Shown: in pieces, positions 1 to 19,716 of the stretch
Position numbering within the stretch: the stretch's first letter is position 1
How the letters are laid out: each line of letters begins with the position of its first letter
Origin: Caldisericum sp. CG2_30_36_11
GTDB taxonomy: Bacteria > Caldisericota > Caldisericia > Caldisericales > Caldisericaceae
Reading direction: 5' to 3'
Length of the DNA: 35,966 nt
Assembly: GCA_001871575.1 (NCBI GenBank)
Contig: MNXV01000007.1
Coordinates: forward strand, 1-35,966
Program-made: the position numbers and the translations under genes
The notes under the pieces: generated by a model
Database searches by the model: none
Told to the model about the DNA's origin: nothing
What the model saw: the letters and a program-made list of their open reading frames with translations, nothing else

Positions 1-182
1 GATTCGTTTAAAGATACCAGTATGGTTTTCTCTTTTGTGAAGTCTAAAATTCTTTTAAAAAGGTGGAACTTTTTTGGAGTTTGAGAGTCTTATATATGAA
101 GAGAGAAAATTTTGGCTAAAGTGCAAAATGGATTTCACTAAAACCGAAAATCTCTTAAAAATGTATTGACACGAGAGAGTAA

Positions 183-218
183 AATCTGCTGAGAAGACGC
201 AGATTACAAAGGATTAAA
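183..218 (+). repeat. Hairpin repeat copy A
   Basis: AATCTGC-TGAGAAGAC-GCAGATT then ACAAAGGATTAAA. Confidence 0.6.
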
Positions 219-400: not shown

Positions 401-1645
401 ATGAAGAAGATTTTATTAGTAAGTTTGGCTACCTTATTTTTATTAACAACATTTGCATGGACTCCAAAAGGATATTCTAAGAATGCTCTATACATTAAAG
501 ATTCTTCAATAAATACGGCTGTAGTCACAGATGAACTTGCTGATATATTAAAGGCCTGGATCAATAAGAATGAAGCACAGTACTATAAGGACATTTCCGT
601 TGCAATGACTCCTGTTAAGGTAGAAATTAAAGAGGGTAAGGTAGAGGAAACATTCAAGGTAAAAATAAGTGAAATGTTAAAAGCAACAACCCCGGAAGAG
701 TTGCCAGCAATAAGAGGAATGGAAAGATTCAAAGATTTGAAAAACGGAGAATTATCCCCTAACAGCATCAGTGCTGTAAATAAAGAAATAAATAGTTGGA
801 TTGCTGAACTAAAGGGTTACATTGGCAAAACTGAAACTCTTAATATTGATTTTAAAGTTGTAGCAGACCTTTCAGAGAACGGAAATATTCTACCAGAAAC
901 AGTAAACTTCTTTGCAGATAATTCAATGGGTGATTTTTATAGGATATACAGTTTGGTTCTAACTGCAGATGAAATGGAAATGAAAGGTTTCAAGCATGTA
1001 GAAGAAATTGCAAATAAGGCTAAGGATGCTGCTTTTCCTCAAACTTCTCAATATTGTTACAGAGTAGATGAATACCGGAGAAAAGATACAAATTATGATT
1101 ATCCTGGCTATCCTCACTACTATGAGTATGCAGCTGACTATGCAGATCACTATGCTCTAGAGTATAACACGAACCAGTATATGACTTGTACAAATGATTG
1201 CGCAAATTTTGTTTCACAGGCAATGTATGCTGGGGGAGTTCCAATGAGTACCACTTATGATGTAGAGAATTGGTGGTACGATGGCCTTCCTCCAGGTTAT
1301 GCTCCCTGGATATGGACAACACCAGTTCCTGAAAATGGTAATACTGGTTTAAGGAACTATATGTATTACAATGGTTATTGGGAAGACTCGGATTGGTACT
1401 GGGCTAGTGCAGGAAGTGTAATAATGTGGAAAGACACAAGTGATTACCCAGGACATGTTGCAATGGTTGTGGAAAATGATACTATAAACCGTACATTAAG
1501 TCAGTATAATACTGATAGACAACACCATCTTTATAGTGGGGAAGGGTGGGAAAATTCATATTACAATGATAATGACATGAATTTCTATACAGTTCATCAT
1601 TATGTTACATATTGTTATGCTTCACAACCTGGAATACCAAAGTAA
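401..1645 (+). CDS. Secreted protein with C-terminal putative amidase domain (Amidase_6-like)
   Basis: ORF with SD aggagg; N-terminal signal peptide MKKILLVSLATLFLLTTFA; Cys motif TNDCANFVSQAMYAGG and His motif PGHVAMVVEN typical of Amidase_6/CHAP-like domains. Confidence 0.75.
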   Translation: MKKILLVSLATLFLLTTFAWTPKGYSKNALYIKDSSINTAVVTDELADILKAWINKNEAQYYKDISVAMTPVKVEIKEGKVEETFKVKISEMLKATTPEELPAIRGMERFKDLKNGELSPNSISAVNKEINSWIAELKGYIGKTETLNIDFKVVADLSENGNILPETVNFFADNSMGDFYRIYSLVLTADEMEMKGFKHVEEIANKAKDAAFPQTSQYCYRVDEYRRKDTNYDYPGYPHYYEYAADYADHYALEYNTNQYMTCTNDCANFVSQAMYAGGVPMSTTYDVENWWYDGLPPGYAPWIWTTPVPENGNTGLRNYMYYNGYWEDSDWYWASAGSVIMWKDTSDYPGHVAMVVENDTINRTLSQYNTDRQHHLYSGEGWENSYYNDNDMNFYTVHHYVTYCYASQPGIPK

Positions 1646-1656
1646 ATGAAAAAATT

Positions 1657-3426
1657 ATGCTAAGAAAAAAGTTAATAGCATCAATATTTGTTATACTTAT
1701 TTTATCAGTTTATGCTGGATGCAGGAGGACAGAAGGAATCTTGCCACAAAATAATCCTCAGAGCGAAATACCAAATCAGGAAGTTGAAATTGGGAATAGT
1801 AAAGAAGGCGAATTTGTGCCCTGGGAGACTTCTCACTGGGAAAAAATTAAGGATGGCTCTATTACCGCTTTTGCAATAGAGCCAAAAGATACCAACATCA
1901 TATATACAGCTGTTTATCCAGAAGAAATAATGGACCAATTCGGTCTAGTTCGCCGGACAGAAAATGCTTCTACTATCTGGAAGTCCGAAGATAGAGGGAA
2001 GCATTGGAGCATCCTCCTATCTATAAAAAATGAAGCTAATGCACCTGAGACAATTGATGCGATTTGTATTGACCCAGAATGTTCTAAAAATATTTGGATA
2101 TCAGAACATGGTGCTGGAGTGTTATTTTCTTCTGATGGTGGTATCACCTGGGAAAAAGACCTTCAAAAAAGTGAAAACGACATTTTAAAGATGTATAATG
2201 ATAGCTTTAATAATAAGGATCTACCAGTTGTTTATATGTATCGAATTCCTGAAGTTAATAGTGATATTGGTGCTCTGTTCTCATCGCTTGATTCTGGAAA
2301 AACATGGAAACGAACTACTTTGCCTCCGTTAACTGGTATAGTATCAAATCTATCAAAACCTTTAGCTGTTGATAAAAAAAATCCAAATATCGTATACGCC
2401 TTTGGCAATAATGGCCTTTTTAAAGCAGTGGAGGGAAGAGGAAACTATGAATACTATCCTGTTGAAGACAGTGTAAATACTTCTTACATATATATTGACC
2501 ATCAAAATCCAAACCTCCTGTACATTGTCTCTTACAGTTACCAAACTTATAATTCTTTTACTACCTTCAAGTCATCCGATTGCGGTAAAACATGGGAAAA
2601 GATGGGTGACTTCTATTTTAATCCTCTTTATCCTGATCTCCTTATAAAGGGTGTGACGACAAAAGAAACCCCTCCTATTTTGTTTTTGAAGAAACTTTAT
2701 GTATCGTTGGACAACGGGAAAAACTGGAAATTAACAGATCTTGACCTTAACGAAAGCAATCTTTATAACATCTCAGTGGGAGTAAAAGGTATAATTTATG
2801 CAGAGACTTATAAGGGGCTTTTTAAATCCGAGGATAAAGGGTTGCATTGGTTTCAAATTCCAAACTTCAAGGAAAACTATTGGAGTGCAATATCTGCGCA
2901 TAGTTGCTTTAATAGTAGAATTCTTGTTGACTCTAACAATCCAAATATAATTTATTGGGCAAGTGGACTTTCGAAATCTACCGACGGCGGAAAAACATGG
3001 CAAGAGATAAATATTCAATATTCCAAACACGTTCATGGTTCTACAATTATGATTGACCCGCATAACCATAATATTGTTTATCTTGGAGTAACAGGAATAA
3101 ACGACGTTGAACCACTTTCTTATGAAGAGTTTACCACACAGGGCATCTATAAAAGTATTGATAGTGGAAAAACATGGGAAAAGATAGGCTTAACTGGATA
3201 TAGTGTAAGTGCTATAGCAGTGAGCCCTGTAATAGGCATCATATATGCAGGAACATACCATGATGGCTTATTTATGTCTAAGGATTCTGGAAAAACATGG
3301 GAAAAAATCCCTCTTGATGGTGATTTCCATATTTCTGTTTCCTCTCTTGCAACTGATTCTAAAAATGGCATTGTTTATATAGGTGTTTTTGGAGGAGGTA
3401 TCTTTAAGATAGAAGATAAAAATTAA
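1657..3426 (+). CDS. Lipoprotein with multiple BNR/Asp-box (sortilin-like beta-propeller) repeats
   Basis: Internal ATG at 1657 gives MLRKKLIASIFVILILSVYAGC, a lipoprotein signal with lipobox; about nine SxDxGxxW motifs (e.g. KSIDSGKTWEKI, MSKDSGKTWEKI). The ORF track start at 1612 overlaps the upstream gene and is less likely. Confidence 0.8.
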   Translation: MLRKKLIASIFVILILSVYAGCRRTEGILPQNNPQSEIPNQEVEIGNSKEGEFVPWETSHWEKIKDGSITAFAIEPKDTNIIYTAVYPEEIMDQFGLVRRTENASTIWKSEDRGKHWSILLSIKNEANAPETIDAICIDPECSKNIWISEHGAGVLFSSDGGITWEKDLQKSENDILKMYNDSFNNKDLPVVYMYRIPEVNSDIGALFSSLDSGKTWKRTTLPPLTGIVSNLSKPLAVDKKNPNIVYAFGNNGLFKAVEGRGNYEYYPVEDSVNTSYIYIDHQNPNLLYIVSYSYQTYNSFTTFKSSDCGKTWEKMGDFYFNPLYPDLLIKGVTTKETPPILFLKKLYVSLDNGKNWKLTDLDLNESNLYNISVGVKGIIYAETYKGLFKSEDKGLHWFQIPNFKENYWSAISAHSCFNSRILVDSNNPNIIYWASGLSKSTDGGKTWQEINIQYSKHVHGSTIMIDPHNHNIVYLGVTGINDVEPLSYEEFTTQGIYKSIDSGKTWEKIGLTGYSVSAIAVSPVIGIIYAGTYHDGLFMSKDSGKTWEKIPLDGDFHISVSSLATDSKNGIVYIGVFGGGIFKIEDKN

Positions 3427-3510: not shown

Positions 3511-3606
3511 ATGTTCTTACGCAAACGTTATAGGTCAACAGAATTTATTAAAAAAAGCTGCAATTCAATTTAATAGGAGAGCGCTGTTTTTTATAACCCG
3601 CTAATA

Positions 3607-3644
3607 AATCCACTGAAAAAGAGCGTGGATTACAAAGGATTAAA
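3607..3644 (+). repeat. Hairpin repeat copy B
   Basis: AATCCAC-TGAAAAAGAGC-GTGGATT then ACAAAGGATTAAA; different stem from copy A, same tail. Confidence 0.65.
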
Positions 3645-3751
3645 GAGTGCAGGTTACAGAAGAATAAACATGGAAAAAGTGAAGTTATAACAAGATATAC
3701 TCCAAAAACTTGCAATTTTTTTCAGAAAGACTAAAATTTTTCAGAGTGATA

Positions 3752-3788
3752 AACCTGCTGAAAAGAGCACAGGTTACAGAGGAGGATT
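3752..3788 (+). repeat. Hairpin repeat copy C
   Basis: AACCTG-CTGAAAAGAGCA-CAGGTT then ACAGAGGAGGATT. Confidence 0.6.
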
Positions 3789-3822
3789 CGCAGGAAAGGA
3801 GTAGCGAATACAAAAGAATAAA
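3786..3822 (+). repeat. Hairpin repeat copy D
   Basis: ATTCGC-AGGAAAGGAGTA-GCGAAT then ACAAAAGAATAAA; directly follows copy C. Confidence 0.55.
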
Positions 3823-16130: not shown

Positions 16131-16203
16131 AACCTGAGCGATTCTCCAAACTTTCCTCTATTTCTTTAAAATTGCAAAGATTGCAGGTTACAAAAGAGTA
16201 AAT
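16131..16203 (+). repeat. Hairpin repeat-like copy F with a long loop
   Basis: AACCTG (16131-16136) / CAGGTT (16185-16190) followed by ACAAAAGAGTAAA. Confidence 0.4.
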
Positions 16204-16798: not shown

Positions 16799-18637
16799 AT
16801 GAAAGGAAAGTCACTAACAGACGCTTTGCATGACATTCAGAGTGGAAACAAAGAAAACTATATTCCGGAAAAAGATACGTTAACTATTTCCGAAAAGAGC
16901 AAGGTTTCACTATCAAAGGTTTACGGATTTGCAACTTTTTATTCAATGTTTTCAGTAAAGCCTCGAGGTAAACATATTATAAGGGTATGCAAAAGCCTTT
17001 CCTGTCATATGGGAAAGGCAGAAGAGGTAATTGAAAAACTCGAAGAAGTACTTGGCGTTGAAATTGGAGAAACAACAGAGGATGGTGAATTTACCCTTGA
17101 AGAAAGTAGCTGTCTTGGAATGTGCTCTGTCTCCCCTGCAATGATGATTGATAAAATTCCATTTGGCAACCTCACTGTGGATCAGATCCCAGAAATTATA
17201 AAGAAAGTGAAGAGTGAAGGAAGTCAAGAGAAGATTTACACAGAGCAGATCCTTCCGGCCCAAGGGAGAGTAGTATTGAAGAGTGTTGGAGTAATTAATC
17301 CTGAAAGTATTGATGAATACATTGCTTCTCGTGGATATCTTGCTCTTAAAAAGGCAATTGAAAATGGACCTCAATGGGTTATTAACGAATTGAAAAAATC
17401 AGAGCTCAGGGGAAGAGGGGGGGCAGGATTTCCGACAGGTAGAAAGTGGGAATTCACTGCTAAGGCTCCAGGACCTCAAAAATATTTGATTTGCAATGCC
17501 GATGAAGGTGAGCCTGGCACATTCAAAGATAGGGTAATAATGGAAGGGGACCCTCACTCTATTATTGAAGGAATGATTATTGCAGCGTTTGCAACGGGTT
17601 GCAATAACGGTTACATCTATATAAGAGGCGAATATGACCTATCCATAAGAAGAATTGAAAAGGCAATTGGGGATGCAAGAAGCCACGGTTTCCTTGGTAG
17701 AAATATTCTTGGAAGTGGTTTTCCATTTGATATTGAGATTCATAAGGGAGCGGGTTCCTATGTCGTTGGAGAAGAAACAACTCTTATGGAATCAATTGAA
17801 GGGCATAGAGGAGAGCCAAGGAAAAAGCCACCATATCCTCCAACCTTTGGGTTATTGGGCAAGCCTACAGTTATCAATAATGTTGAAACACTTGCTAATG
17901 TACCGCCAATCATCACGAACGGGGCAGATTGGTATAGGACAATTGGAGTCCCGGAGTCTTATGGAACAAAACTTTTCAGCTTATCGGGTGATGTGAACTG
18001 GAAGGGTGTCATTGAGGCTCCTTTCGGTACACGACTTTCGTATATTGTAAACGAGCTTGGTGGTGGGGTAAGGAATGGCAAAAAACTTAGAGGTGTTATC
18101 TTTGGAGGGGTATCTGGGACTCTTCTCACTCCTGACCAATTTGATATCCCTGTTGATTTTAATTCACTCGTAACTATAGAGGCTGGCCCTGGCTCAGGTT
18201 CAATAATTGTTATGGATGAGACAAGGTCTATAGTTAATATTGCTAAAAATATTGCTTATTTCTTCAAGTATGAAAGTTGTGGAAAGTGTACACCTTGCAG
18301 AATTGGCACCGAGCAACTTATGAATATAATTGATAGGATTTTAGAAGGCTCTGGTAAAGAAAGTGACCTTGAAGTTATTGAAAGATTAGGGCAGGATATG
18401 AGGTTAACATCTTTTTGTCCTCTCGGACAAACTGCCCCAAATATTATTGTTCAATCAATCCAAAAGTTCAGGAGCAAGTGGCTTGAACACATGAAATATA
18501 ACTCTCCCCAAAAACTGGACAGGGGAATAAGGTGCATGTTAGGTTGCCAGAAACAAGGAGGAGGAAAGAGATGGCAAGCAACATGCGGAAGAATCACGAT
18601 ACAGCTTTTAAGGCCAGGGTGGCCCTGGAGGCCCTGA
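16799..18637 (+). CDS. NuoE-NuoF fusion, NAD(H)/FMN-binding diaphorase subunit; C-terminus altered by IS insertion
   Basis: NuoE part: LSKVYGFATFYSMF, CKSLSCHMGK, CLGMCS; NuoF part: RGRGGAGFPTGRKWEF, NADEGEPGTFKDR, GAGSYVVGEETTLMESIEG, SCGKCTPCRIGT. From about 18503 the frame reads into the IS. Confidence 0.88.
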   Translation: MKGKSLTDALHDIQSGNKENYIPEKDTLTISEKSKVSLSKVYGFATFYSMFSVKPRGKHIIRVCKSLSCHMGKAEEVIEKLEEVLGVEIGETTEDGEFTLEESSCLGMCSVSPAMMIDKIPFGNLTVDQIPEIIKKVKSEGSQEKIYTEQILPAQGRVVLKSVGVINPESIDEYIASRGYLALKKAIENGPQWVINELKKSELRGRGGAGFPTGRKWEFTAKAPGPQKYLICNADEGEPGTFKDRVIMEGDPHSIIEGMIIAAFATGCNNGYIYIRGEYDLSIRRIEKAIGDARSHGFLGRNILGSGFPFDIEIHKGAGSYVVGEETTLMESIEGHRGEPRKKPPYPPTFGLLGKPTVINNVETLANVPPIITNGADWYRTIGVPESYGTKLFSLSGDVNWKGVIEAPFGTRLSYIVNELGGGVRNGKKLRGVIFGGVSGTLLTPDQFDIPVDFNSLVTIEAGPGSGSIIVMDETRSIVNIAKNIAYFFKYESCGKCTPCRIGTEQLMNIIDRILEGSGKESDLEVIERLGQDMRLTSFCPLGQTAPNIIVQSIQKFRSKWLEHMKYNSPQKLDRGIRCMLGCQKQGGGKRWQATCGRITIQLLRPGWPWRP

Positions 18638-18882
18638 AGGAGGAGAAGACTATGGCCCAGATCTCCAGCGAGTATGGGGCGCATCCGAATCAAATCCGTC
18701 AATGGAGACAGAAACTTCTTGATGAACTGCCCGGTGTGTTTTCCGATCGTCGGCAAAAAAAGGATAAAGAAACCGAAGAAGCGACGTCTGAGCTTTACCG
18801 TCAAATTGGTCAGCTCAAGGTGGAGCTGGACTGGCTTAAAAAAAAATCCCAGCAGCTTCTGTTGAGGAGAAGCGGGCGATGA
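18571..18882 (+). CDS. IS3-family transposase OrfA (HTH)
   Basis: MASNMRKNHDTAFKARVALEALKEEKTMAQISSEYGAHPNQIRQWRQKLL; SD ggaggag; A9 run at 18838-18846 suits -1 frameshifting into orfB. Confidence 0.88.
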   Translation: MASNMRKNHDTAFKARVALEALKEEKTMAQISSEYGAHPNQIRQWRQKLLDELPGVFSDRRQKKDKETEEATSELYRQIGQLKVELDWLKKKSQQLLLRRSGR

Positions 18883-19716
18883 TCGAGCCAGGACATAAAA
18901 AGATAACCATAGGACGTCAATGTGATTTGATAGGGATTCCCAGGGCTTCATATTATTATGAATCGAATCGTGATGACAGCTACAACGATCTTATTATGAA
19001 ACTTATCGACGAGCAGTTTACGAAGACGCCCTTTTACGGAGTTCCCAGGAAACGGCATCTTTGCGGATCAAGGGTCATGAAGTAAATCATAAGCGAATCC
19101 GCAGGCTGATGCGCAAGATGGGACTGGAGGCGATTTATCCAAAGAAGAAGTTGAGCAAGGCCCATCAGGAACATAAGAAGTATCCGTATCTGCTGAGGGA
19201 TGTGGTTATTGATCATCCTGATCAGGCCTGGTGCGTTGATATAACCTACATTCGTATGCGCAGCATGGTTTTGTCTATCTTGTTGCGATCATGGATTGGC
19301 ACAGCCGCTATGTCCTGGCTTGGGATATCTCCACCACCATGGATGTAGCCTTTTGCACCAGGACGCTGGAGAAGGCACTGAAGATTTCTAAGCCGGAGAT
19401 ATTCAACTCCGATCAGGGATCTCAGTTTACCAGCGACGATTTCACGGGAATTCTTAAAAGAGAAGGCATCAGCATCAGTATGGATGGCCGGGGCCGGGTG
19501 TCTGACAACATCTTCGTGGAGCGCCTCTGGAGAACAGTCAAATATGAAGAGGTTTACCTTCACCAGTACATGACTGTCTCCGAAGCTCGTAGAAGTCTCA
19601 ATAAATACTTTCTTTTCTACAACATGGAGAGGATTCATGAATCCCTGGGTTATAAAACCCCTTATGAAATCTATTTCAAAGAACCTTTAAACCAGCAAAC
19701 AAAACAGGCGGCTTGA
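18879..19716 (+). pseudogene. IS3-family transposase OrfB (rve/DDE), disrupted by two apparent 1-nt deletions
   Basis: Pieces in three frames join to one OrfB: IGIPRASYYYES, KRIRRLMRKMGLEAIYPKKKLSK, DQAWCVDITYIRM, FVYLVAIMDWHSRYVLAW, IFNSDQGSQFTS, ISISMDGRGRVSDNIFVERLWRTVKYEEVYL. Breaks near 19050 and 19263. Confidence 0.85.

Follow-up and report, generated by a model that had tools for sequence, protein, structure and literature searches.

Intergenic DNA of Caldisericum sp. CG2_30_36_11 contains a cluster of short hairpins whose stems differ in sequence yet remain complementary, and the question is whether such elements act as RNA or are copies of a mobile DNA. We examined them in a window of 35,966 nt, the whole stretch of contig MNXV01000007.1 that was analysed. 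A preliminary description had reported three hairpins (B, C, and D) and, between B and C, a 3′-half copy, all of which are present at the coordinates listed in Table 1. The half copy lacks a pairing 5′ arm and is the remnant of a tandem copy. A near-identical copy of D lies elsewhere in the source genome (G000:C28:4653–4692), with the downstream flank common to both and, again, another unit before it, so that C and D form a recurrent dimer; the flank of the unit at 181–218 was likewise found again, at G000:C45 and G000:C38. Allowing up to two mismatches, we counted 12 occurrences of the tail motif in the window, compared with 5.0 ± 2.1 in shuffled sequence (0 of 100 shuffles reached 12).

Table 1. 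Hairpin units and partial units in the window, with matches to the covariance model (R1)
Feature	Position (strand)	Stem arms	Loop, tail, and surroundings	Model match
Unit upstream of Amidase_6 gene	181..218 (+)	AATCTGC/GCAGATT		54.8 bits, strong
Element B	3605..3644 (+); 36-nt unit 3607–3642	AATCCAC/GTGGATT, 3607–3613/3625–3631	loop TGAAAAAGAGC; tail ACAAAGGATTA, reaching 3644; TAAA-like flanks	59.0 bits, E = 7.1e-11 genome-wide
3′-half of second unit	3645..3668 (+)		GAGTGCAGG-TT-ACAGAAGAATAAA; adjoins B	exact tail match
Element C	3752..3783 (+)	AACCTG/CAGGTT, 3752–3757/3770–3775	loop CTGAAAAGAGCA; truncated tail ACAGAGG continuing into D	40.4 bits
Element D	3785..3822 (+); unit 3785–3820	ATTCGC/GCGAAT, 3786–3791/3804–3809	AGG-type loop; tail ACAAAAGAATA, reaching 3822	seed member
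Weak or partial unit	16167..16202 (+)		tail GGTTACAAAAGAGTAAA	29.7 bits, E = 8.8e-4

The surroundings of these units hold several features of their own. Units at 181–218 and 3605–3822 flank a gene pair (401–3426) composed of an Amidase_6 gene followed by a gene for a BNR/Vps10-like repeat protein. In the related genome G007, a gene pair for secreted proteins that looks similar, and for which a Pfam search gave no match, sits on a 5-kb segment that is duplicated at 99.7% identity (L221:5208–10495; L222:7271–12407); the segment carries 240-bp direct repeats and has units near its ends. A promoter-like leader of ~80 bp, including TTGACA, precedes a unit in the window (100–180), at L078:2350–2430, and at L082:90–170; two of these three places are near contig starts or ends, which suggests assembly broken at repeats and a multi-copy leader. 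Further along the window, a fused NuoE/NuoF-like gene directly meets an IS3-type element (16799–19716; HTH_Tnp_1 and integrase-like ORFs) at its 3′ end, and its final residues seem to have been altered by the insertion.

Across genomic copies, the unit measures ~36 nt and comprises a 7-nt arm starting with AAT or AAC, a purine-rich loop (TGARAAGAG), a complementary arm ending in ATT or GTT, and the tail ACARARGANTA, which is also carried by units with AGG-type loops (as in element D) or short CAAARNCG-type loops. The tail usually starts with ACA on the purine-loop strand and with CCA on the pyrimidine-loop strand, the latter giving rise to longer imperfect palindromes. Units sit in either orientation at mostly A+T-rich, TA(A/G)A-like insertion sites, and they also occur as tandem arrays with a period of 34–36 (for example, L210) and as composites—at L082, a reverse 36-nt unit (TATTCC...GCGAATT) separates the stem of another unit from its tail. 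Usually four of the six reading frames of a unit are open (mean 3.50 versus 2.98 ± 0.09 in shuffles).

The idea that the hairpins belong to one repeated family was borne out by genome-wide searches. In the 1.22-Mb source genome, the tail motif has 26 exact matches, most with a hairpin directly upstream, and 338 matches at up to two mismatches, versus 186 for the reversed pattern. A calibrated covariance model, built from a seed of 28 aligned genomic copies that included B, C, and D, recovered at least 97 copies in this genome at E ≤ 0.01 and at least 114 at E ≤ 1. The search of relatives that the preliminary description had proposed yielded many more: 12 of 31 genomes, the source included, have model matches, and one of the 12, with a single match, lies outside the source's own family. 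The richest is Caldisericum sp. GA_180221_E-1-2-MAG-37_73 (hereafter G002), with 135 copies in 304 kb, from which we extrapolate an estimate of ~260 for the whole genome. The same 304 kb contain 133 occurrences of the tail motif, 73 with a hairpin directly upstream, compared with 6–11 occurrences of permuted motifs, none with a hairpin in that place. The exact tail pattern was found 159 times in G002 and 47 times in G000, where the reversed motif gave 0 and 1 matches, respectively; other genomes of the family have the pattern at most 10 times.

The repeat family is confined to Caldisericota, with few or no copies in other family members and essentially none outside the family. In a pattern scan of 84,980 species genomes, 20 of the 21 stretches recovered came from Caldisericota (18 from G002 and one each from CSMAG_3039 and UBA646), and the remaining one, from Aquimarina, we take as a chance match. 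A two-protein tree places G002, with weak support, near G000 and G003, the last of which has only 11–12 copies; G007, assembled as a single contig of 1,558,103 bp, has 14–18. Viral, phage, and plasmid collections, including IMG/VR, gave no match to the pattern, and carriage of the repeats by phages or plasmids was rejected on that ground. Searches of the open-access literature yielded no account of repeats like these in Caldisericota.

The stems of this family covary. Among the 28 aligned copies, five pairs of the 7-bp stem have changed on both sides, amounting to 30 both-sided cells versus 9.1 ± 2.1 after shuffling, and in G002, held out as an independent genome, the corresponding figures are 172 versus 54.9 ± 6.4. 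The earlier proposal that stem changes go beyond plain copying therefore holds. Covariation of this kind may be maintained at the level of RNA or of DNA. In an RNA hairpin, G·U should be much better tolerated than A·C, whereas a DNA-level palindrome should hardly tell the two apart, given that a T·G on one strand corresponds to a C·A on its complement. Over the six outer stem pairs of model-aligned copies, we counted 48 G·U and 38 A·C mismatches (p = 0.33), and since the model scores pairing, any recovery bias would favour G·U. The mismatches are thus strand-symmetric, and nothing in them favours RNA over DNA.

Comparison of sites with and without units shows that sequence is gained in steps of 36 nt. 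Repeated intergenic host sequence was found in both states: one site measures 67 versus 31 nt (+36), and another 58 versus 22 nt (+36) and 91 versus 19 nt (+72). Genes show the same increments. Aligned with 16 relatives, PheT of the source genome is longer by exactly 12 aa at the unit; in G002, each aligned with 12 relatives, ArgS shows two expansions, of exactly 12 aa and of about 32 aa, and GcvPB one of 36 aa (genomic translations). Within the 304 kb of G002, 49 of 135 copies (36%) lie inside predicted ORFs, many of them in-frame in conserved housekeeping enzymes, most of whose names were assigned by eye. A unit length of exactly 36 nt is more frequent inside genes (23 of 28) than between them (58 of 122; p = 7e-4), an excess that fits selection for frame. 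An insertion in MetRS was set aside as proof of a 36-nt gain, as it falls in a length-variable linker. Many copies have TA at both ends; a TA target-site duplication fits DegV, TnpB, and MetRS but not PheT and is accordingly not claimed here, and no clean target-site duplication was seen. Among other genic copies, one unit lies in-frame inside a TnpB-like gene and one at the 3′ end of another (L016:1501–1540, reverse strand; L083:1962–2001), and several more are found within a 900-aa anaerobic ribonucleotide-reductase-like protein with an apparent intein-like segment (L205:621–3323, G002:C119).

These observations bear on what the hairpins are. The preliminary description had offered a small RNA, a protein-binding RNA site, or a structured mobile repeat, with loop and tail motifs that could mimic a Shine-Dalgarno sequence; filled and empty sites differing by exact multiples of 36 nt uphold the mobile repeat and speak against the RNA options. 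A cis-acting RNA whose hairpin and purine tail bind a regulator (CsrA-like or other) or mimic a Shine-Dalgarno sequence, and so control downstream genes, would account for strong stem covariation, for the conserved loop and tail, and for those copies that lie on the same strand just upstream of start codons. The orientation bias of G002, where gene-strand copies are in excess (62:30) and orientation correlates with GC skew (85:50; p = 0.003), could likewise come from an RNA role; it may otherwise reflect lagging-strand insertion or the purine bias of coding strands. Copies nevertheless occur in both orientations relative to genes, also between convergent or divergent genes and within ORFs of either strand; they are present or absent in exact multiples of 36 nt, lack a significant G·U excess, and match no Rfam family at the gathering threshold (a permissive search gave chance matches only). 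Taken together, these points leave a cis-acting RNA very improbable. Covariation might instead stem from arm-to-arm (quasipalindrome) correction at replication rather than from selection on the hairpin, the units being passive repeats, a reading with which the scarcity of one-sided intermediates and the strand symmetry of mismatches agree. Against such correction, the stem is degraded in the G008 orthologue (L063) of a copy whose stem is kept in the source genome (C38:2835), which suggests decay after insertion, not constant correction. We consider this route unlikely; it concerns the cause of covariation and is compatible with a mobile repeat.

If the units are mobile, they might be true REP or Rickettsia palindromic elements (RPEs), in which case a RAYT/Y1 HUH transposase would recognise their folded form and move them. 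Their size, hairpin, alternative complementary stems, dimers, and intragenic copies agree with published descriptions (PMC3733652, PMC8266576, PMC10969869), and the source genome has one Y1 gene (C38:11525), the single match to Y1_Tnp (PF01797; RAYT/IS200) in G000. However, no model matches surround that gene—the nearest copy among the matches listed is 8 kb away—and G002, the highest-copy genome at 99% completeness, has no PF01797 match. The sequence tags of those families are also rare or missing: among 216 copies, GTAG stands near either end in 8 and a terminal CGTC in none. We therefore regard this possibility, too, as rather improbable. Searches for IS630-type DDE_3 gave no match in either high-copy genome or in any family genome searched, and those for reverse transcriptase none in either high-copy genome. 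With no match in G002, Y1/RAYT, IS630, and reverse transcriptase were rejected as movers; the mover may lie outside these groups or have been lost.

Very probably, then, the hairpins represent a palindromic DNA repeat that is mobile but non-autonomous and resembles REPs or RPEs in kind. A unit would insert in either orientation, each event adding 36 nt, and insertion beside or inside existing units would generate tandem and nested inverted arrays. Because unit length is divisible by three and four of the six frames usually have no stop, genic insertions would often survive as 12-residue additions. Mobility may act on folded single-stranded (or cruciform) DNA, with a putative trans-acting enzyme that reads the loop and tail; the stem would need only to pair, and its sequence could drift while pairing was kept. 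More tentatively, these may be a distinct type of mobile DNA, in which a folded 36-nt hairpin spreads in exact quanta by a recombinase or replication-linked route outside the Y1, IS630-type, and reverse-transcriptase systems, and in which unit length lets 12-residue insertions colonise essential genes—a proposal we think somewhat doubtful at present.

In-frame, gene-invading palindromic repeats have their best-documented examples in Rickettsia and Wolbachia, for which no mover is yet known. The Caldisericota repeats are an independent case from a thermophilic phylum, and their shorter unit, exact 36-nt steps, and empty and filled sites make the mechanism testable. They also advise caution, in that covarying, multi-copy intergenic hairpins in metagenome-assembled genomes can pass for a new non-coding RNA family while being mobile DNA, and an extra 12 aa in a Caldisericota protein can be of repeat origin.

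Among known systems, MITEs are likewise short, non-autonomous, and dispersed, with an inverted-repeat structure. The Caldisericota unit is shorter, however, and its stems covary rather than match fixed terminal repeats; we found neither a parental insertion sequence with matching ends nor a clear target-site duplication. As regards a MITE of an IS630/Tc1-mariner-type element in particular, many copies have TA at both ends, the PheT copy does not, and a DDE_3 transposase gave no match in the family genomes searched. The RPEs of Rickettsia and their Wolbachia counterparts (WPEs) resemble the Caldisericota repeats as small palindromic elements that lie between and inside genes, in-frame, with several open frames and no known mover (PMC10969869, PMC3767692, PMC3733652), and Rickettsia elements do insert in-frame into genes (PMC10969869, PMC3767692). 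They differ in length (about 100–150 bp versus 36 nt), in the CGTC ends of R. conorii RPEs, and in phylum, and the Caldisericota unit has its own purine tail and builds up in 36-nt multiples; this comparison is by description. A REP is defined by its GTAG or CGTC tag; alternative complementary stems are known from REP subfamilies, as are intragenic copies, and CGTC repeats have no known transposase (PMC3733652). REP, BIME, and REPtron systems share with the Caldisericota family hairpins of 20–50 nt in more than 100 copies, alternative complementary stems, dimers, clusters, and some intragenic members (PMC3733652, PMC8266576), but the Caldisericota unit has a long conserved purine loop and an 11-nt conserved tail in place of a GTAG or CGTC tag, and its highest-copy genome is without a Y1/RAYT. 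The Caldisericota repeats are therefore GTAG-REP-like in being high-copy palindromes with alternative stems, though not in tag or cognate transposase, and CGTC-REP- or RPE-like in their in-frame genic insertion, though not in tag or length. They are best read as a lineage-specific variant with a conserved purine loop and tail and a 36-nt unit occurring in tandem and nested multiples and, given the outcome of the tag tests, are placed among small palindromic mobile repeats as a variant of their own rather than as REP or RPE.
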